Shown here: positions 2,665 to 36,645 of the stretch, in pieces
Position numbering within the stretch: position 1 is the stretch's first letter
Layout: each line of letters opens with the position of its first letter
Source: Elusimicrobia bacterium CG_4_9_14_3_um_filter_62_55
GTDB taxonomy: Bacteria; Elusimicrobiota; Elusimicrobia; UBA1565
Direction: 5' to 3'
DNA: 37,066 nt
NCBI GenBank assembly: GCA_002790095.1
Contig: PFUL01000147.1
Location: 7,579-44,644 of the forward strand
Notes under the pieces: model-generated
The model's database searches: none
Told to the model about the DNA's origin: nothing
The model's input: only the letters and a program-made list of their open reading frames with translations
Position numbers and translations under genes: made by a program

Positions 2665-4905
2665 ATGAGACTCTCCCTCCCTATTTTGGCGTTGCTTCTA
2701 CTCGCGACGCCGCTGCGCGCGGACCTGCAGGCCGGGGACGGCGGCCAGGAGACCGTCCAGAAACGGGAAGCCGACGAAAACGAGACCGCCAAGAAAACCA
2801 ACGACGATGAAGATGTCGACCCCAAGGCCGTTGCGATCAGAGAAACCGCAGGGACCATCGGCAACGCAGTCGGCAACGTAGTCGGCGACGAGGTTGACAA
2901 CACGCTCCCCGAAATCGAACTTGTCGGAAAGACGATAGAAACAAAACTTCCGGAACTAGCCGAACCCGGCTCCATAAATCGGCTCGAGGATTTTAACAGG
3001 GTCAACTCTGATCTGGATGCCCCGACGCCCCTACCGGAAAGTCCCCTCCCCGAAGTGATCACCCCAAACTTCCCGCCGGGGTTCAAAGAAGTTGCCCAAG
3101 CCATCGGCTGGATCCCCAAAGAAGATACAAAGCGCGTCGTAACGGAAACCGAACGCATTATCGAAGAATACCCCGACGAACCCGCCAGCTATTGGCTCGG
3201 CGCCTGGGCCCAAAACCGGGTCGGCCGCCGCGAAGAGGCGCTCGACATTCTCGAGCGCGGACTCGAAATCGCCCCCGAGGACAAAAGCCTAACGAACCTG
3301 CAGAAGCTTCTCACCCCCAAGGCCTCGGAGATGGCGCAAAAAGAGGTCGACCGCCGCCGCGAAGCCCTGATGGGCCGCCTGCAAAGCGGCGACGCCGCCG
3401 CCGATTTCGGCGCGGGCTTCGCCGGCCGCGCGACCGCCGAACAAGCCCCGCAGATGGCCGGCATGGTCAATCCGGCGATGTTCTCGCAAACGGCCCGCCA
3501 GGCGCCGAACCCGCGCGCCCTGGCCGGCATCCAAGGCGGCCTCTCCGCGCTGAAGGTCGGCGACGCGAAGGCTGCGGTGTCGCATTTCACCGAGGCGATC
3601 CGCCGCGATCCGCAAAATCCCGTGCCGTGGCGCTTTCGAGCGATGGCGCTGCATCAGGCCGGCGCGAACGAATTAGCCGTCAAGGACGCCAACCGCGCGG
3701 TGTCGCTCGACCCCAAAGACCACTGGGCGTTTTTAGTCCGCGCGAAGGCGCTAACCGGCCTCAAGCAGTACGAGACCGCGAAGATCGACATCCAGGCGGC
3801 GCTGGAACTTGATCCGAAAAGCGCCGACGCCTACGCGACGCGCGCGCGTCTGCACCACGTGCAGGGCGAACACGCACAGGAACTGCAGGACTACCGCACC
3901 GCGGTCAATTTGGACCCGGCCTTCGCCGACCTATTTCGCGGCGCGATGCGAGAGGCCGAGCGCCTGGCCGGGAAGTCCGCGCCGCCCAAGACCCCGCTCT
4001 CCAGGAATCTGCTGTACCCCGGCGCGGGACTGCTCGGACTCGGCTTTTTCGCCGCGGCGCTTTTGCGTCGCCGCGGACAGACGACGATCACGCAAGGCAA
4101 CGCCCAGGGCGTCGGCGGCTTCGACATCGTACGCCGCATCGGCCGGGGCGGGATGGGCGAGGTATGGGAAGGCCTCGACCGCGCGCTCGAGCGCCGGGTC
4201 GCCATCAAGAAACTGGTTCCGGAGATCGCCTCGGTCCCGCGCGAACGCCAGCGCTTCCTTAAGGAAGCCCGCACCGTCGCGGCGCTCAAGCACCCGAACA
4301 TCATCGAAATCCATCAGGTCGTTGAAACCGGGGATGATCTCTATCTCGTGTTCGAATTCGTCGACGGGGTCTCGCTCGATTCGGTGCTCGCGGAGAAGGG
4401 GCGCCTTTCGCCGCCTGAAACGCTCGAAGTCCTGCGCCAAAGCGCGCTCGCGCTCGATTTCGCCCACGGCCGCGGGGTGATCCACCAGGATTTAAAGCCC
4501 GCCAACATCATGGTGGAAGGCGAGACCGTCAAGGTGATGGATTTCGGCATCGCCCGCCGGGTCGCCGAAACGATGGGGGCCGTGACCCGAGTCGAAGTGG
4601 TCGGAACCCCTTCCTACATGGCGCCCGAACAGGCGTTCGCACAGGCCTCACCGGAAACCGACATCTTCGCGCTCGGGGCGACGCTCTACGAGATGCTCTC
4701 CGGACAACGACCGTTCGGCGGCGCCGCCGGCGATTTTTCGAAACTCCAGAAGGCCTTCGTCCCCCTCTCCCGCACGGTTCCTGAGATTCCGGAAGCCGTC
4801 GACGCGGTGATCGCCCGCGCGCTCGATCCGGACCCGAAACTCCGTTTCCACTCGGCAGGGGAGTTGTTCACCGAACTCGAAGCCGCCGTGGGCGCCCGCG
4901 CCTGA
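2665..4905 (+). CDS. Membrane TPR protein with C-terminal Ser/Thr protein kinase domain
   Basis: ATG 2665 gives a clear signal peptide (MRLSLPILALLLLATPLRA); the longer frame from 2551 has none. An AAGGAG lies 18 bases upstream, further than usual. The 746-residue product has an acidic linker, several TPR units (about residues 150-440), one transmembrane segment (about 448-467) and a Hanks-type kinase domain (about 485-745). Kinase motifs are intact: GRGGMGEV glycine loop, VAIKK with Lys515, HQDLKPAN with Asp609, DFG with Asp626, and SYMAPEQ. The catalytic loop is HQD rather than HRD, as in non-RD kinases. The topology suggests periplasmic TPRs sensing a partner and a cytoplasmic kinase. The gene is followed by a paralogue that has lost key residues. 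Confidence 0.88.
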   Translation: MRLSLPILALLLLATPLRADLQAGDGGQETVQKREADENETAKKTNDDEDVDPKAVAIRETAGTIGNAVGNVVGDEVDNTLPEIELVGKTIETKLPELAEPGSINRLEDFNRVNSDLDAPTPLPESPLPEVITPNFPPGFKEVAQAIGWIPKEDTKRVVTETERIIEEYPDEPASYWLGAWAQNRVGRREEALDILERGLEIAPEDKSLTNLQKLLTPKASEMAQKEVDRRREALMGRLQSGDAAADFGAGFAGRATAEQAPQMAGMVNPAMFSQTARQAPNPRALAGIQGGLSALKVGDAKAAVSHFTEAIRRDPQNPVPWRFRAMALHQAGANELAVKDANRAVSLDPKDHWAFLVRAKALTGLKQYETAKIDIQAALELDPKSADAYATRARLHHVQGEHAQELQDYRTAVNLDPAFADLFRGAMREAERLAGKSAPPKTPLSRNLLYPGAGLLGLGFFAAALLRRRGQTTITQGNAQGVGGFDIVRRIGRGGMGEVWEGLDRALERRVAIKKLVPEIASVPRERQRFLKEARTVAALKHPNIIEIHQVVETGDDLYLVFEFVDGVSLDSVLAEKGRLSPPETLEVLRQSALALDFAHGRGVIHQDLKPANIMVEGETVKVMDFGIARRVAETMGAVTRVEVVGTPSYMAPEQAFAQASPETDIFALGATLYEMLSGQRPFGGAAGDFSKLQKAFVPLSRTVPEIPEAVDAVIARALDPDPKLRFHSAGELFTELEAAVGARA

Positions 4906-4933
4906 CGCCCTTGCGGAGCCTCTCCGCGTGCTT

Positions 4934-4939
4934 TATCCT
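4934..4939 (+). promoter_or_regulatory. -10 box before the pseudokinase gene (TATCCT)
   Basis: TATCCT lies seven bases before ATG 4947 and no Shine-Dalgarno sequence is present. A near-leaderless transcript is likely, although read-through from the upstream kinase gene is also possible. Confidence 0.4.
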
Positions 4940-4946
4940 TACCCCG

Positions 4947-6797
4947 ATGGCCCGCAATTCATGGATTCTCGCGTTCGCGCTGCTCGCCTCGCCCGCGCCG
5001 TCCTTCACGGCGGAAGGCCAAGGCGCGCTCGCCGACCTGACGACGCAAGCCGAATCGGCGCTTAAATCCGGGGACTACGCGGCGGCCGAAGCCGTGGGCC
5101 GGGACATCATCGCGCGCGACCCCTCCAACCCGCTGGGCTGGCGCATCGTGGCGCTGGCGCAGGACCAGCAAGGCGACCGGGCCGGCGCCCAGGCGACCGT
5201 CGAGGAAGGGCTGGCCCATGCCCCGCAGGATGACGGCCTGCAGGGATTAAAGCGCGTCCTCGCAAAAACCGCACCGAGCATGACGCTCGACACCAGCAAG
5301 CTTAAGAAGGATTTCAAGGACAAGGAAGACGATCTCCAGAAGCCGAAATCGCGGCGTCCGGACTCAACGGGCATGTCCGCGAAAGGCCCCGGAGCGGAGA
5401 AGATGCTCCCGGCCCAGATGGGCGAGCACGCGACGCCGATGTCCTTCGCCCGGCCGGAACTGCATACGGGGTTCACCCGCCGCGGCTTGGAACTAATGCA
5501 GTCCGGCGAATTGATCGGCGGGATCAAGGAACTCACCCGCGCGATCTCGCAAAACCCGAAGGATAACGCCGCGCTGCGCTGGCGGGCGCTCGCGCGCGAG
5601 AAGGCGGGCGATCACGAGGGGGCGATCGAGGACGCCGACCGCGCTTTGGCCGTCGACGACAAGGACGCCTGGGCGCTGAAGACGAAGGCGCTCGCCCTGC
5701 TCGCGCTGAAAAAGGCGGAGCCGGCCTTGACCGCGGCGAACAAAGCGATCGAGGCGAACGCGACCGACGGCGACGCGTTCCGGGCCCGCGCGATGATCCG
5801 CAAGGCGCTCGGCGACGACGCCGCGATGATCCAGGACCTCGCCCAGGCCGCCGCGCTCGACCCGGCGTTCGCGGCGCTTTACCGCCGCGAACTCGCGCGC
5901 GTGGAGAAGGGAAGCTCCGCGGAAGACCCCGAAGAACAGGGCGGAAACACCGCGATGGGGACGATGGTCGCGCTCGGGGCGCTGGTTTTGGGCGGAGGCC
6001 TGGCCGCGGCCTTCGGACGCAAAAAGAAAGCGGCACCGACCCCGTCGCAGGAAGGATTCAGCGTTACCGGATTCGACGTCACGGCCAAACTCGGGCAGGG
6101 CGGCATGGGAGAGGTTTGGCTGGCGACCGACCGCGCGCTTAAGCGCCAGGTAGCGATCGAGCGCCTGCGCTCGGAAATCGTCGGAGATCCCGGGATGCGC
6201 GAAAAATTCCTCAAAGAAGCACGCGCTGCGGCGGGGCTCAAGCACCCGAACATCGTCGAGATTTATTCGGTGATCGAGGAAGGCCCGGAATTGCTCTTGG
6301 TCTTCGAACACCTCGACGGACAATCCCTCGACGCGATTTTAGCCGAACACGGGAAGCTGACGCTTGAACAGGCGCTGGAGATCGTCCGGCAAACCGCCGC
6401 CGCGCTCGACTACGCGCACGCGCAAGGCGTGATCCACCAAGACCTCAAGCCCGGCAGCATCATGATCGCCGGCGACGCCGTCAAGGTGATGGACTTCATC
6501 GTGGCCCGCCGCGTCGCCGCCGCCCACCGGTACACGGCGCCGGAACAGGAAAGGGGCGACCCGCGCCCGCAAAGCGACGTCTACGCTTTGGGCGCTTGCT
6601 TCTACGAGATGCTCACCGGCGTCCGGGCCCGCCCCGCACAGGGATGGACCCCGCTGAGGCAGCTGCTCCCGGGCTGTCCGCCCGCGCTGGACGGGGTGCT
6701 CGCCTATACCTTCGATCCCGATCCGGCGAAACGCTACCCCAGCGCGGGACAACTGGCCGCGGCGATCTCCCAGGTCGCCGGATCCTCCCCCGCCTGA
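4947..6797 (+). CDS. TPR membrane protein with degenerate Ser/Thr kinase (pseudokinase) domain
   Basis: ATG 4947 gives a signal peptide (MARNSWILAFALLASPAPSFTA); the frame from 4911 does not. The 616-residue protein repeats the layout of its upstream neighbour: TPRs (about 25-110 and 180-320), a membrane segment (about 338-358) and a kinase fold (about 375-610). Three hallmark residues differ. The VAIK lysine is Glu405, the HQDLKPxN asparagine is Ser504, and DFG reads DFI (Ile518). The HQD Asp499 and the first Asp of DFx (Asp516) remain, and the glycine loop GQGGMGEV is intact. The APE motif is present, but the activation segment is shorter than in the paralogue. It is probably a pseudokinase that scaffolds or regulates the active paralogue; that role is inferred from the tandem pairing. 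Confidence 0.82.
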   Translation: MARNSWILAFALLASPAPSFTAEGQGALADLTTQAESALKSGDYAAAEAVGRDIIARDPSNPLGWRIVALAQDQQGDRAGAQATVEEGLAHAPQDDGLQGLKRVLAKTAPSMTLDTSKLKKDFKDKEDDLQKPKSRRPDSTGMSAKGPGAEKMLPAQMGEHATPMSFARPELHTGFTRRGLELMQSGELIGGIKELTRAISQNPKDNAALRWRALAREKAGDHEGAIEDADRALAVDDKDAWALKTKALALLALKKAEPALTAANKAIEANATDGDAFRARAMIRKALGDDAAMIQDLAQAAALDPAFAALYRRELARVEKGSSAEDPEEQGGNTAMGTMVALGALVLGGGLAAAFGRKKKAAPTPSQEGFSVTGFDVTAKLGQGGMGEVWLATDRALKRQVAIERLRSEIVGDPGMREKFLKEARAAAGLKHPNIVEIYSVIEEGPELLLVFEHLDGQSLDAILAEHGKLTLEQALEIVRQTAAALDYAHAQGVIHQDLKPGSIMIAGDAVKVMDFIVARRVAAAHRYTAPEQERGDPRPQSDVYALGACFYEMLTGVRARPAQGWTPLRQLLPGCPPALDGVLAYTFDPDPAKRYPSAGQLAAAISQVAGSSPA

Positions 6798-13646: not shown

Positions 13647-14843
13647 TCAATAGAGGCGCTTTCGCACCGCTTCAAAGACGGCATCCACTCCAATCGCGCG
13701 CACGCACGCGTTGTCGCGGCAGGTCGAAGTGCGATGGTTGAACGCGCTCAAGCACGGACTGCAGGCGAAGTTTTCATAGAACACCGTCTTATCTTCGGTG
13801 AGCGGGCCGTAGAGAGACGGCGTTTCCGGACCGTAGAGCGCGACGACCGCGGCCCGGGTCAGCGTCGCCAGATGAACGACGCCGCTGTCGTGGCTGACCA
13901 CCGCCGTGGCGAGATCCAGCGTTCCGAGCAATTCCTCGAGAGTCGTCTCCCCCGAGAGATCGACGCTCCGCGCATGCGCCGGAGTTCCATTCCCGTCGCC
14001 GCGAATCTTCCCCACCCACGCGACGAACACGCCGTCGAGGGCCAGCAGACGGTCGGCCAATTCGCGGTATCGCGGCATCGGCCAGTTCCGAATCGGCAGC
14101 CGGCTTTCAAAATCCGCATGCAGACAAATGAACCCCTTGCGCCGGTCGAACCCGGGCAGCCTCGCGGACAATCGGGCGGACATCGCGTCCCGGTACGAGT
14201 CGAGACCCGGCGCGCGCGGCACGCTTGTCTCGATGATCGCCGACGGCGCCTTCAGGTGCGGGGCCTCGTCCGCGGGCCGCTTGAGCGCCTCGACCAGCGC
14301 GATAAAATTAGCGCTGATGTGCCGGTACGGGTTGTAGAGAACCGCACGGGTTTGAAGTTTTCCCCGGTACAAACCCTCCATCTCGTGGCGGTCGAAGCCG
14401 GTCCTTTGCGAGGCGCCGGTCAAAAAACTCAAGATCGCGGTGATACGGGAAAACAACTCCAGATCCACGACCGCGTCGATCCCTTCCCGCCGCACGCGCC
14501 GGAGTCCCGCCAGCGCGTCGACCATCACCGTCCAAACGCTGCGGGAACGAATCAAAAATACTTTCTCGGGATCGACCAATCCCTGCACCCGCAAAACGTC
14601 CGCGTTCTCCGCGAAAATCCAAAAATAGATCTCCGCCTCGGGCCAGCTTCGGCGAACGTGCCGCAACGCAGGCTCCGCCAGGATCGCGGCTCCGATTTCC
14701 GACAACTCGATGAAAAGGATTTTTTTCGGAGAAGAACCCGTCGATTCTTCCCGCCGCCCCAGGATCCGCCGGCTCGCGTCCAAGACGGCGCACAACACGC
14801 CCCCGATGAGCCGGTCGATAAGCCGCACGCGGGCTAAGTCCAC
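13647..14843 (-). CDS. Family 9 glycosyltransferase (heptosyltransferase-like)
   Basis: The 398-residue product resembles ADP-heptose:LPS heptosyltransferases, which add sugars to lipopolysaccharide core or related glycans on the cytoplasmic face. After a short basic N-terminal segment, KKILFIELSEIGAAILAEP is the Rossmann start of the GT-B fold. The C-terminal donor-site block VVSHDSGVVHLATLTRA and ALYGPETPSLYGP is well conserved. Three late Cys residues (FACSPC and TCRD) are also common in the family. It starts at GTG 14843, six bases after TAGCCT, with no Shine-Dalgarno sequence. It is divergent from a YfhO-like gene and shares the promoter region. Confidence 0.85.
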   Translation of the reverse strand: MDLARVRLIDRLIGGVLCAVLDASRRILGRREESTGSSPKKILFIELSEIGAAILAEPALRHVRRSWPEAEIYFWIFAENADVLRVQGLVDPEKVFLIRSRSVWTVMVDALAGLRRVRREGIDAVVDLELFSRITAILSFLTGASQRTGFDRHEMEGLYRGKLQTRAVLYNPYRHISANFIALVEALKRPADEAPHLKAPSAIIETSVPRAPGLDSYRDAMSARLSARLPGFDRRKGFICLHADFESRLPIRNWPMPRYRELADRLLALDGVFVAWVGKIRGDGNGTPAHARSVDLSGETTLEELLGTLDLATAVVSHDSGVVHLATLTRAAVVALYGPETPSLYGPLTEDKTVFYENFACSPCLSAFNHRTSTCRDNACVRAIGVDAVFEAVRKRLY

Positions 14844-14849
14844 GCAGAA

Positions 14850-14859
14850 AGGCTACCAT
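14850..14859. promoter_or_regulatory. Overlapping divergent -10 boxes with leaderless spacing
   Basis: Minus-strand TAGCCT (14850-14855) ends six bases before GTG 14843. Plus-strand TACCAT (14854-14859) ends six bases before ATG 14866. The two boxes share two bases, so RNA polymerase could open only one at a time. Confidence 0.45.
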
Positions 14860-14865
14860 TTACTC

Positions 14866-16857
14866 ATGAATTCCATGTCGCGGCCCGGTCTGGGGAGGCG
14901 GGACCTGTGGGTTCTTACGGCTCTGGCGCTTCCGCTGGCGGCCGTCGTTCTGCCCGCTTTGACCGGAAGAACCTATTTTTGGGGCGATCTGCTCTACCTC
15001 CATCATCCTTGGCGCGCCCTCCCGGCGGAAATGCTGCAGCGCGGGGCTTTGCCTCTTTGGAACCCGTACATCTACCTCGGCATGCCGCTGGCCGCCTCCA
15101 TGCAGGGAGCCGTCTGGTATCCCGGAACCGTCCCGTTTTACCTGTTCGGATTCGAGACCGCCCTCGCTCTGTTTCACGCGCTTCACTTCTGGCTCGCCGG
15201 CGCGGGAGCCTATCTATGGCTGCGAAGCATCGGCATGGGGAGGGCGGCCGCGGCGGCCGGCGGCGCGGCGTGGATGCTGTCCGGTCAGTTGGTTCGCGAT
15301 CTTCCGTTTCTCAACCACCTCAGCACGCTGGCCTTTCTGCCCGCGTTTCTCCTGCTCGGCAGGCGCCCCGCCTTTCTGGGACTCGCGTTGGCGTTGAGTT
15401 TCTTCTCCGGGTACCCTCAGATGCTCGCCGGCTCGGCCGCGGCCGCGTGGCTGATCGGGTCGGCCCGGCTTTGGGGCGCCTCCCTCTCCTGCGCGCGGGC
15501 CGTCTCCGCCATCGGATCGTTCACGCGACGATGGCTCCTCGCGGGTCTGTTCAGCTTGGCGCTCTCCGCCGCGCTGCTCGTTCCGGCGCTCGAACTCGCC
15601 GGCCGCTCCCGCCGCTCCACCGGAATCGACTCCTCCGAAACGCTCACCTTTTCCTTCGCGCCGAAAGACCTCGTTCAATTCAGTTCCCCGCTTCTCGTAA
15701 AACGGGGCGAGTTCTCACCCGCGTTTCAGTGGTGGAAAACCGTCTACTGGGGAATTCTCGGACTCGCTGCGGCCGGACTCGGCTTCTTTCGCCTCACCCG
15801 TGCGGCCGCATGCGCCGCGGCGGCCTACCTGCTCGGCTCGATTCTGCTGATGCTCGGAGGAAGCAATCCCCTCTCGAACGCCTTGTGGACCCACGCGCCT
15901 TTGCTCAACTATATCCGCTATCCCGGCAACACCTCCTTCCTGGCTTCTCCCGTTCTGATGTACCTGATCGCGCGGGGACTGTCCGGCAGGAAATGGGCCC
16001 CTTGGGCGGCGCTCGCCGTCATCGCCGAACTTTTCGCGTACTCCTGGTTCGCGCACCCCGCCGTTCCGCGCGGCTACTTCACTCAAGCGGGTCCTCTGGT
16101 TCGCAATCTTCAGAGAGAACTTGCGGGGCACCGCTACCTGCTCTCTCCCCTGGCGTTGAACTGGTCGCGCGGTCGGGGCGCCGATTTCGCGTCCGCGTCG
16201 CTCGATCTCAAGCAGAGACTCTACGGCGAAACGAATACGGCTTTCCATCTTTCCGCCGTGGGGAATTTCGGAGAACCGCTCGTTCCCAATGAAAATTACG
16301 CGGTCATGGACCATCTTTACAGCCGCCCGGGCCTCGCCGCGCTCGCCCCGTGGCTCCCTTGGGTCGACGCGAAAATCCTGCTGACGAAGGACCGCCTCGC
16401 TCCCGGTGATCTTCGCTATTTAGGCGACAGCCTGTGGCAGCTCTACGGCCCGGCCGTCCCGGTCGAGCGCGCCTACTGGATGGACGACGCGACGGCGGAA
16501 CAACTTCCACGCGGGCTCGATGCCGATCCGCCTTCGATGAAGGAAGTCGTTCCCGTCCCCGTCGAACGCCTCCGTGAGGACGCGCTGCGCGCGAGCGGAA
16601 ACTTCTCGCGTCCCGGATGGCTGTTCCTCTCCGAGCCGTTTTATCCGGGGTGGCGCTTCCGGCTCGACGCGGGCGGCGCGTCGTCGAACCCGGACTCGCT
16701 CCCGGCCCTCGGCGCGTTCCGGCGCTATCGCGTGCCCGCCGGCGCGTGGACGCTCGCGGCCCGCTACGCGCCCGGCAGTTGGACGCTGGGTCTTTCGATT
16801 TCCCTGCTCTCTTTGCTCGCCGGGCTCGGGGCGGCGTACGCGAGGCGCCCGCGGTGA
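14866..16857 (+). CDS. YfhO-like polytopic membrane protein (1 of 2)
   Basis: The 663-residue product has about ten to twelve hydrophobic segments over residues 10-430, then a large soluble C-terminal domain and a last membrane helix near the end. N-terminal motifs WGDLLYLHHPWR and LPLWNPYIYLGMP, and the late YPGWRFRLDAGG with a VPAG turn, are typical of the YfhO/GT-C-like family. Some members glycosylate lipoteichoic acid or handle polyprenyl-linked sugars. ATG 14866 is preferred over the long frame from 14710, which runs antisense into the glycosyltransferase; a TACCAT box lies six bases upstream. The neighbouring glycosyltransferase supports an envelope-glycan role. Confidence 0.75.
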   Translation: MNSMSRPGLGRRDLWVLTALALPLAAVVLPALTGRTYFWGDLLYLHHPWRALPAEMLQRGALPLWNPYIYLGMPLAASMQGAVWYPGTVPFYLFGFETALALFHALHFWLAGAGAYLWLRSIGMGRAAAAAGGAAWMLSGQLVRDLPFLNHLSTLAFLPAFLLLGRRPAFLGLALALSFFSGYPQMLAGSAAAAWLIGSARLWGASLSCARAVSAIGSFTRRWLLAGLFSLALSAALLVPALELAGRSRRSTGIDSSETLTFSFAPKDLVQFSSPLLVKRGEFSPAFQWWKTVYWGILGLAAAGLGFFRLTRAAACAAAAYLLGSILLMLGGSNPLSNALWTHAPLLNYIRYPGNTSFLASPVLMYLIARGLSGRKWAPWAALAVIAELFAYSWFAHPAVPRGYFTQAGPLVRNLQRELAGHRYLLSPLALNWSRGRGADFASASLDLKQRLYGETNTAFHLSAVGNFGEPLVPNENYAVMDHLYSRPGLAALAPWLPWVDAKILLTKDRLAPGDLRYLGDSLWQLYGPAVPVERAYWMDDATAEQLPRGLDADPPSMKEVVPVPVERLREDALRASGNFSRPGWLFLSEPFYPGWRFRLDAGGASSNPDSLPALGAFRRYRVPAGAWTLAARYAPGSWTLGLSISLLSLLAGLGAAYARRPR

Positions 16858-24362: not shown

Positions 24363-24521
24363 ATGCGCGCCATTTCGCTTCTGCTCATCGCCTTGCTCGC
24401 CTTGCTCGCCTTGCCCCGCCCCGCGGAGGCCGCTCGCGGCTTCCGGAGCCTCTTGCATGCCTCTTGCTCCCCGCCGCGTGCGGACGGGGTCATCAATCGA
24501 TGCGTATCGCCTATTCGCTAA
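24363..24521 (+). CDS. 52-aa ORF with signal peptide: frameshifted SBP start or small Cys peptide
   Basis: The frame begins MRAISLLLIALLALLALP and continues PRPAEA, a good Sec signal peptide. It goes on for 29 residues including ASCSPPR and INRCVSPIR before TAA at 24519-24521. It overlaps the 5' end of the peptide-binding-protein frame in a different register. The simplest reading is that this is the signal peptide of that protein, separated from it by a natural or sequencing frameshift. Alternatively it is a separate small secreted peptide with two Cys and several Ser residues, conceivably a YcaO substrate. Confidence 0.4.
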   Translation: MRAISLLLIALLALLALPRPAEAARGFRSLLHASCSPPRADGVINRCVSPIR

Positions 24522-25870
24522 ATGTATTGGGGCCCGCCGACTCTCCGATTCGGCCCGGCCAGACCGAATTTGTCCCCCAATATTACCTGCTTGAGAATTT
24601 AACCGTCGGGCTCGTACAGGACGACAGCACCTCGCCGTCAGGATACGCGCCCGGTCTAGCGGAGTCTTGGAAACGCCCATCCCCTAGCGTTTGGACGTTC
24701 CATTTACGGAAGGGACTGCTCTGGAGCGACGGAACCGAAATCCTGCCCGAACAGATTGCGGAATGCCTTTACAGGATTCGAGAGGGAAATGGGCCGCATA
24801 TCGGTTCACTGAAACTTCTCAAACGAGTCGAATTCCAGGATAGTACGCTGCGGCTCTCGTTCGGCGCCCCCGTCGGACCCGGGCTTCTTCACGAATTAAG
24901 CCTTGCGGACGCAGGCATCGTCCACCCAAAGAACTTCGCCGGGGATTGGAGCGTCGTTTCCGGACCCTATAAGATCCTTTCCTATATGCCTCGCAGAAGT
25001 CTCATGCTAGGAAAGAATAAGAAATTCATTGGTTCTGAAGATTTCCCCGAGACAGTTGAGTTGCTCCCGATGTCCGCGGAGAACCTCCTTGGCTTCTTCG
25101 ATACGATAGACATCGACGTTATCAAAGTTCCCATGAGGGTGCGCGCGACGCACTTCGGACCGATTTTCGAACGAGCACCTCAAACCTATGCTGGCTATCC
25201 TACGGAAATACACTTTCTCTCCTTTTCCTCGAACTCCTGGCTGGTCGAAGATCTGCCCGCCCGAACGGCCTTCGCGAAAATCTCCCAGCGGGAGTTGCAG
25301 GCCTCCGTTTCAGGCTCCTTCTCGACCGAAGACCAGTTCATTCCCGAAGGCTTTCGCGGGCGACTTCCGTCAAAGGTCGAATTATCGGCGTCTTCGGAGG
25401 AAGCGCTTCGCGGAAAGGCGATTAAGATCGTGCTATCCGATTCTTACAAGGGCCTGGAGGCCGCTTTCTCGAAAATAGTCGCGGCGCTCCACGCCTTAGG
25501 CTGCAATGCCGAGATCCGGTTCGTGGGTTACTCCGGCTCTAGTACAGCGGACGGAGACGTGCGCATGATATCGTTCATCGGGAATCAACGCGATCCGTCG
25601 GGTAGTTGGCGATTTCTGTTCTCTGAGGATGGCGGATTGGCCCCGTTCCGGCAAAGGGCAGCCGCACACCTCAATCTTCTCGCTCTCGCTCAACCTAACC
25701 GGGAGACGCGGGAAACTCTCGACTCCCTCCACCGCGCGGCGATCGCCGAAGCGTTCGGCGTACCCATCTTCGTCGATTCCTCCGCGATCCTCGCCAGCGA
25801 TCGGGTCGACCTGTCACGCATCAACCGATTCGATATGCGGATGCGCTTTTATGAAATGCGATGGCGATAA
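24464..25870 (+). CDS. ABC-type peptide/solute-binding protein (SBP_bac_5), start uncertain
   Basis: The frame of 468 residues matches extracytoplasmic oligopeptide-binding proteins: MRIAYSLNVLGPADSP at the mature start, YYLLENLTVGLV, APGLAESWKR, VWTFHLRKGLLWSDG, then VVSGPYKI and a late Asn/Arg-rich lobe. No signal peptide lies in this frame. TTG 24464 gives only a short lead containing LLPAACG, which is weakly lipobox-like, whereas a good signal peptide lies in another frame just upstream. No permease or ATPase genes are adjacent, so it is an orphan binding protein. Its 3' end overlaps the YcaO-domain gene by 20 bases. Codon use is visibly less GC-biased than most neighbours. Confidence 0.75.
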   Translation: MLPAACGRGHQSMRIAYSLNVLGPADSPIRPGQTEFVPQYYLLENLTVGLVQDDSTSPSGYAPGLAESWKRPSPSVWTFHLRKGLLWSDGTEILPEQIAECLYRIREGNGPHIGSLKLLKRVEFQDSTLRLSFGAPVGPGLLHELSLADAGIVHPKNFAGDWSVVSGPYKILSYMPRRSLMLGKNKKFIGSEDFPETVELLPMSAENLLGFFDTIDIDVIKVPMRVRATHFGPIFERAPQTYAGYPTEIHFLSFSSNSWLVEDLPARTAFAKISQRELQASVSGSFSTEDQFIPEGFRGRLPSKVELSASSEEALRGKAIKIVLSDSYKGLEAAFSKIVAALHALGCNAEIRFVGYSGSSTADGDVRMISFIGNQRDPSGSWRFLFSEDGGLAPFRQRAAAHLNLLALAQPNRETRETLDSLHRAAIAEAFGVPIFVDSSAILASDRVDLSRINRFDMRMRFYEMRWR

Positions 25871-26726
25871 TGCTTGGCGGCCCGATCTGGAAGTGCTCCA
25901 AAATGGTTGCGGCAACGTCCGCGACGCCGCTGAACGCTTACACCCGATTCGTTGGGCGTTCCGACGGTTCACTATTCCCTTTTTTCCCTTAACCGTCGTC
26001 GAGTGCCGAATGACCGGATTCGGAAGGACGGAATTCGGGTTCGGCGATTCAATTCTCTATAAAAACTCCGTCGTCCAAGCTTTCGCGGAAGCATGGGAGC
26101 GCATTTGCGCATTCACGCACCCCGGTTCATTTCGCGCGGAAAACTCCTCTCGAAGGAACAGCAACGGTTGCGCGTCTGGGATATCGCAGTCCGACGCAAG
26201 CCGACGCGCCCGCGGAGAACTTCTGGAACGCGCTCTCGTCCTTCAGGCCTGGGAGCAGCGCCGCGGATGGAAGACGATGCGTCCCGCGTGCGCCGAATCC
26301 CGATTGCTCAGCTTCTTTCTGCGTGCGAACGGGTGGGAAGCCCGAATCTACGAAATCGCAGACGGGAGCGACGGACGAGCCGTCTGCCTCGTCGCCGAGC
26401 ATGAGGCTTTGGGAACAGTCTTCGACAGTCATTACGCTGAGAATCCATCCGACGCATGCTCCGCTCAGGCGAAGGTTCTTAAGAGCGTCATGCGAATGGC
26501 TGCCGCGGCGGCAGACGGCGCCCCCGCCGCGGACGATCTCCCCGAGGTGGGATCTCCCCACGACCACGTCTTGTTCTATCGGCGCGACGGTTCTCGAAGG
26601 GCCTTTGACTTTCTACGAACCCCGGAGGCCGCAACACCGCTGAATTTCGTCGGCTTGCGGAGATTCGGCGCCAGGCAGTCACTTTGTCACTTTCAGGAAA
26701 TCGTCGCTGCAAAAGTGACAAAGTGA
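25851..26726 (+). CDS. Minimal YcaO-domain protein
   Basis: The 291-residue product shows the two paired YcaO ATP-binding signatures. The first is FGDSILYKNSVVQAFAEAWER with Glu80 and Glu83. The second is NSNGCASGISQSDASRRARG followed by ELLERALV with Glu123 and Glu126. YcaO enzymes use ATP to activate peptide amide bonds, making azolines, thioamides or amidines. This one is shorter than typical heterocyclase YcaO proteins, has no obvious Pro-rich C-terminus (it ends IVAAKVTK) and has no fused E1-like partner. I start it at ATG 25851, overlapping the binding-protein gene by 20 bases; the frame from 25629 is antiparallel-free but lies wholly inside that gene. Its last codons form one arm of a 16-bp inverted repeat. 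Confidence 0.65.
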   Translation: MKCDGDNAWRPDLEVLQNGCGNVRDAAERLHPIRWAFRRFTIPFFPLTVVECRMTGFGRTEFGFGDSILYKNSVVQAFAEAWERICAFTHPGSFRAENSSRRNSNGCASGISQSDASRRARGELLERALVLQAWEQRRGWKTMRPACAESRLLSFFLRANGWEARIYEIADGSDGRAVCLVAEHEALGTVFDSHYAENPSDACSAQAKVLKSVMRMAAAAADGAPAADDLPEVGSPHDHVLFYRRDGSRRAFDFLRTPEAATPLNFVGLRRFGARQSLCHFQEIVAAKVTK

Positions 26727-26727
26727 C
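26678..26727. terminator. 16-bp perfect inverted repeat built from 8-bp tandem units
   Basis: The left arm is (GTCACTTT)x2 at 26678-26693 and the right arm is (AAAGTGAC)x2 at 26712-26727, with an 18-base loop. The YcaO stop codon lies inside the right arm. This would be the most stable hairpin in the window and may end or stabilise transcripts from both sides. Confidence 0.65.
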
Positions 26728-26729
26728 GC

Positions 26730-26759
26730 CCTGACACTCAGGCCTGACACTCAGGCCTG
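26730..26759. repeat. Tandem 13-bp quasi-palindromic repeat
   Basis: CCTGACACTCAGG occurs twice in direct tandem (26730-26742 and 26743-26755), followed by CCTG. Each copy folds on itself (CCTGA/TCAGG around CAC). It fills the gap between the YcaO-type gene and galE. Confidence 0.65.
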
Positions 26760-36562: not shown

Positions 36563-36574
36563 CAAAAGGGGTTT

Positions 36575-36645
36575 GGGCAGTATAGGGATTGAACCTATGA
36601 CCTTTCCCGTGTGAAGGGAACGCTCTACCGCTGAGCTAACTGCCC
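36575..36645 (-). tRNA. tRNA-Val (anticodon CAC)
   Basis: The 71-base cloverleaf is complete. The acceptor GGGCAGT pairs with ACTGCCC, the D arm is GCTC/GAGC with loop AGCGGTA, and the anticodon arm TTCCC/GGGAA has loop TTCACAC with anticodon CAC. The T arm is ATAGG/CCTAT with loop TTCAATC. The 3' CCA is not encoded. It reads Val GTG codons. Confidence 0.95.

Follow-up and report, generated by a model that had tools for sequence, protein, structure and literature searches.

Two overlapping genes in a 37,066-nucleotide stretch of the genome of Elusimicrobia bacterium CG_4_9_14_3_um_filter_62_55 (contig PFUL01000147.1; hereafter the window), encoding a solute-binding protein (SBP) and a YcaO protein, appear from sequence comparison to be the decayed remnant of a larger conserved operon rather than a minimal cassette, a conclusion that is well supported. 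The intact module found in other Elusimicrobiota consists of a 2'-dG-II riboswitch, a gene for a 46-64 aa peptide with a membrane leader, the SBP and YcaO genes in either order, and a histidine kinase gene. On balance we favour the reading that this operon works as a 2'-dG-gated modified-peptide signalling module, of which the window retains the remains.

The gene pair of the window and its probable decay

The features of the pair are as follows.

24363..24521, + strand: ORF of 52 aa with a signal-peptide-like start, MRAISLLLIALLALLALPRPAEA; by frame comparison, the SBP body lies in another frame
24464..25870, + strand: body of an SBP_bac_5 (PF00496) solute-binding protein, 67.4 bits (cut-off 32.4)
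25851..26726, + strand: divergent YcaO protein (PF02624) of 291 aa, C-terminally truncated, 30.7 bits (cut-off 25.7, E 2.7e-7)
26672..26733, strand not assigned: dispersed palindromic repeat, an inverted repeat with 22-nt arms at 26672-26693 and 26712-26733
26730..26755, strand not assigned: two tandem copies of CCTGACACTCAGG, 3' of the palindrome

Both proteins exceed the curated cut-offs of the families to which the preliminary description had assigned them, and the 20-base overlap given there is borne out by the coordinates, the YcaO gene starting with the ATG at 25851 and the SBP stop codon ending at 25870. The glutamates Glu80/Glu83 and Glu123/Glu126 named for the YcaO protein are present and are invariant in three close relatives, and the less GC-biased composition ascribed to the pair is reflected in a GC3 of 0.64-0.65 vs 0.73-0.84 for neighbouring genes. 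Genes encoding a permease, as had been stated for the SBP, and likewise a RiPP partner or a kinase were not detected adjoining the pair within the window, nor was an E1-like partner found in the window; the gene downstream, on the opposite strand, is galE. The window copy is the single YcaO found in this genome. Elsewhere in the window, between 35000 and 37000, GC drops to about 50% beside a tRNA-Val gene on the minus strand (36574-36645), which may mark the edge of an island.

Other parts of that description did not hold. The SBP, which is 39-41% identical to the SBPs of three relatives (genomes G180, G226 and G159), had been called complete, but its homology to them begins near position 24500 and it lacks the in-frame export signal that relatives have as a membrane or lipoprotein leader, because the ATG at 24363 is not in frame with the SBP body. 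The 52-aa ORF opened by this ATG is either a lost or frameshifted SBP leader or the fragment of an unrelated gene; it does not visibly resemble the peptides conserved in the relatives and is not claimed as a precursor peptide. The YcaO protein had been called minimal, but its intact relatives are 318 aa long; homology of the window protein to them extends to about residue 275, beyond which the protein continues into the palindrome, which encodes its last 16 residues and stop codon. The loss amounts to about 42 residues, among them the PxPxP of the C-terminus. This palindrome (fold z-score -6.1) has two more copies with an exact core, CACTTTGTCACTTT...AAAGTGACAAAGTG, in the same genome (C125:69410 and C160:34015), both intergenic, the loop sequence varying between copies. 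The hairpin at 26672-26733, proposed as a common terminator of the pair, is rejected as an operon-end terminator, being a dispersed repeat without a T-tract.

With the leader out of frame and the YcaO protein truncated, a complete stand-alone cassette is rejected for the window. Regarding the other parts of the module, the sensor region of the kinase was detected in three of the 56 genomes in the order, the same three that have an intact type A cassette; the window genome is not one of them. The 2'-dG-II riboswitch is absent upstream of the pair, an Rfam scan of its surroundings at low threshold yielded nothing credible, the conserved small peptide gene was not found 5' of the pair in the window, and weak DNA matches used to seek an empty site in family members revealed no synteny. 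Decay must be recent or partial, because the window ORFs are still open with conserved motifs; an assembly fault at the window junctions is a possible alternative to real decay. Another broken YcaO, of type C, was seen at L149 (G331:C175), with no SBP or kinase beside it, and decay of the module thus appears to be recurrent.

The conserved operon in Elusimicrobiota

A scan of contigs by sequence identified the two nearest relatives, JACPOW010000011.1 and CP096137.1, which are Elusimicrobia/Elusimicrobiota MAGs of the window's order, and a PF02624 search of the phylum returned further weak YcaOs, including seven loci (L067-L073) in all of which SBP_bac_5 adjoins YcaO; at L074, selected for its SBP, a YcaO adjoins as well. 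As an independent check, 235 genomes of the class were searched with type B and type C profiles, which gave the new intact loci L147, L148, L150 and L151 plus L123, a locus noted earlier as a riboswitch site, before its YcaO was recognised. SBP, YcaO, kinase and 2'-dG-II are present in all five of these loci, which had not been used to form the hypothesis, and a peptide ORF is present in each except L123.

Altogether, 18 divergent YcaO loci were found. An adjacent SBP is present in 17, the exception being L149 with its fragmented YcaO; a histidine kinase in 15, the loci without a counted kinase being the window, L149 and L072, whose contig ends inside the YcaO gene; 2'-dG-II at gathering score in 12; and a small peptide ORF, the short precursor looked for near the relatives' pairs, in 13, none being found at L067, L074 or L123. 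Neither outcome named beforehand as refuting the pairing, a lack of any significant YcaO match or of co-occurrence in related genomes, was observed: the window YcaO matches significantly, and the SBP adjoins YcaO in all 17 unbroken loci. This last finding, with the identical 20-base overlap in the three type A relatives (L029, L030 and L027), leads us to reject chance adjacency. Divergence of the SBP follows that of YcaO (Mantel r 0.97, as high in none of 2000 shuffles), much of this correlation reflecting the division into types. The type A relatives have 2'-dG-II, a 46-49 aa peptide, SBP, YcaO and a membrane histidine kinase; the gene order is SBP-YcaO-kinase in types A and B and YcaO-SBP-kinase in type C.

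Around the module, sigma-54 activators are the neighbouring response regulators in L071, L073 and L148. Two loci, L068 and L030, have a ThiF/E1-like gene upstream (frame-split in L030), in both cases together with a transporter-like gene, the two transporter-like genes being homologous, so that the reported lack of usual RiPP partners stands for the window and fails for these two relatives; L029 has an MFS gene. No dedicated protease was seen at module loci, and no immunity gene or transporter is conserved across them. Upstream of the L030 cassette (CP096137.1), a pair of secreted-protein and TPR genes (3796-6029) is duplicated at 14050-16268, with transposase-like ORFs between the copies.

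Regarding the identity of the YcaO proteins, the PF02624 cut-off is also exceeded by L029, L030, L073, L071 and L148, while L027, L150, L151, L074 and L147 individually fall below it; since this is so, the calls for L150, L151, L074 and L147 derive from the type B and C profiles, and L123 is recognised by the type C profile alone (E 2.6e-10). Type A proteins have motif 1 (AEAWER) and motif 2 (SNGxAxG...ELLER) without variation, and motif 2 is also matched when canonical YcaOs from this phylum are aligned by profile. The glutamate of the third motif is present in types B and C and missing in type A. The C-terminal PxPxP, which marks azoline-forming YcaOs (PMC12338566), is found in the three intact type A relatives (GGNPWPHPLA); types B (VPHFYG) and C lack it in this form. 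From these motifs, YcaO activity appears most doubtful in type A, in which the third-motif glutamate is missing though PxPxP is present. The type A profile had no match in the PDB, and an AlphaFold model of the L029 YcaO built from three sequences had a pLDDT of 42.

The module peptides have one N-terminal hydrophobic segment and a conserved leader specific to the type; type B, for example, has FQEKLGKS and type C TVFDxxG. Their C-termini are variable and polar, containing Ser, Thr and in some cases Cys, and the peptide family differs by YcaO type. In the five pairs compared, dN/dS was 0.12-0.29, and the peptides of these pairs are therefore coding.

All 2'-dG-II (RF03165) matches upstream of the module are above the gathering score, and in 12 of 12 cases the start of a hairpin with a T-rich tract behind it lies within the final 7-11 nt of the aptamer; the hairpin at L148 is weak. 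As the terminator hairpin overlaps these nucleotides it competes with helix P1 for the same strand, so that 2'-dG should switch transcription on. Following the logic of purine riboswitches, the element should be an ON switch in which the ligand keeps P1 and prevents termination; judging from the Rfam family, this ligand would be 2'-deoxyguanosine.

The window genome (G000) has at least seven 2'-dG-II riboswitches above the gathering score (among them C41:44862, C173:30563, C121:34555, C125:63415, C136:267, C22:5282 and C101:49836), of which C22:5282 lies 2.3 kb left of the window, and several other Elusimicrobiota genomes have four to seven each. Many sites are followed by uncharacterised families of lipoproteins or secreted proteins (L111-L114, L117, L120), and a large 2'-dG regulon is possible. 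In G087, a c-di-GMP-I riboswitch (L073 153-245) lies about 5 kb upstream of the 2'-dG-II cassette.

Operons with a radical SAM enzyme in the place of YcaO were also detected. In the window genome itself, L110 (G000:C125:63300-68500) has, consecutively, 2'-dG-II, a radical SAM gene, a small peptide ORF, SBP_bac_5 and a histidine kinase, and by its gene content is taken as a sister module in which YcaO is replaced by radical SAM. In L125 (G275), 2'-dG-II is followed by genes for a peptide, a radical SAM protein, a GNAT-like protein, an SBP-like protein without a Pfam match and a kinase, the radical SAM protein having its best NCBIfam match, below the cut-off, to the YydG peptide epimerase. L124 has genes for a peptide, a beta-lactamase-family protein and an SBP-like protein.

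A proposed signalling role and alternative explanations

The gene content of the intact operon suggests a sequence of events that would begin with binding of 2'-deoxyguanosine to the 2'-dG-II riboswitch and lead to read-through, since P1 competes with the intrinsic terminator for one strand. The 46-64 aa peptide would then be made, with its N-terminal membrane or signal segment, conserved leader and variable C-terminus, and would be modified in the cytoplasm by the divergent YcaO, or by the radical SAM enzyme in the sister operons. After export via its own leader or a nearby transporter, the modified peptide would be bound by the extracytoplasmic SBP, which may act through the co-encoded membrane histidine kinase on a response regulator, in several loci perhaps the sigma-54 activator encoded next door. 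A peptide is unlikely to be captured first and modified afterwards, since the SBP lies outside the cytoplasm and YcaO within it; an order in which modification precedes export and sensing fits better. A broader proposal, held tentatively, is that Elusimicrobiota use a family of 2'-dG-gated RiPP-type pheromone systems with interchangeable YcaO and radical SAM enzymes, the window being a degraded copy.

Small regulators of kinases, such as MgrB, which acts on PhoQ, generally have one hydrophobic segment and a short polar tail. The module peptides share this form and their gene adjoins a membrane kinase in 13 loci, so they could be membrane regulators of the kinase instead of YcaO substrates, with YcaO acting on the SBP or the kinase, for example. 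We regard this as unlikely, as the peptide family changes with YcaO type, two unrelated RiPP-type enzyme families (YcaO and radical SAM) occur with such peptides, and the leaders are conserved while the C-termini vary, as in RiPP precursors. Still less probable is a modified antimicrobial peptide (bacteriocin) as the operon product, with the SBP and kinase serving self-sensing or immunity: bacteriocins are common among RiPPs, and YcaO, E1-like and transporter-like genes lie near some loci, yet a dedicated protease, an immunity gene and a transporter are not conserved, and the partners that are conserved are a receptor and a kinase.

The suggestion that the window pair is itself a functional, self-contained two-gene system agrees with both ORFs being open and with the retention of the motif glutamates and the 20-base overlap, but the export signal of the SBP and the C-terminus of YcaO are gone, the latter replaced by a repeat; peptide, kinase and riboswitch are missing at the window, where composition is shifted, and the two proteins would work in separate compartments. 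We consider it very improbable, and the pair is better described as the truncated remains of the larger operon.

Relation to known systems

LuxP-LuxQ combines a periplasmic binding protein with a membrane hybrid kinase, and the module similarly encodes an extracytoplasmic binding protein beside a membrane histidine kinase, although its receptor is SBP_bac_5 and not of the LuxP family, and a peptide and a modifying enzyme are encoded in the same operon. In the Gram-positive Agr and ComQXPA systems a precursor peptide, a modifying enzyme (AgrB or ComQ) and a histidine kinase are encoded in one operon, a combination resembling the precursor-like peptide, putative modifying enzyme and histidine kinase of the module; the module differs in that its enzymes are not AgrB or ComQ, an SBP and a 2'-dG riboswitch are present, and the hosts are not Gram-positive. 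The module carries the aptamer family of the known 2'-dG-II regulon (RF03165), while the genes listed downstream of the riboswitch in the published regulon do not include operons that combine a peptide and an SBP with YcaO or radical SAM and a kinase.

TOMM and azoline RiPP clusters contain a YcaO cyclodehydratase with an E1-like/RRE partner (PMC10634744, PMC12338566). Like these, the module has a YcaO gene adjoining that of a short precursor-like peptide, a C-terminal PxPxP in type A and an E1-like ThiF gene near two loci. Unlike them, its YcaO diverges strongly and scores near or below the Pfam cut-off, neither a dehydrogenase nor an E1-like partner is conserved, the conserved partners are an SBP and a histidine kinase, and the operon is under 2'-dG-II control. 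No description of this arrangement was found in the open-access literature searched; as far as could be checked, the families of the parts are known and their combination and its control are new.

With this module, 2'-dG-II, a little-understood riboswitch class, gains a recurrent operon context in which RiPP-type enzymes, either YcaO or radical SAM, are joined to a sensing pair of SBP and histidine kinase. If the peptide is modified and sensed, this would amount to signalling by a modified peptide in a phylum of which almost nothing has been cultured and, should the pheromone reading be true, would link a signal of DNA turnover to peptide communication in mostly uncultured bacteria.
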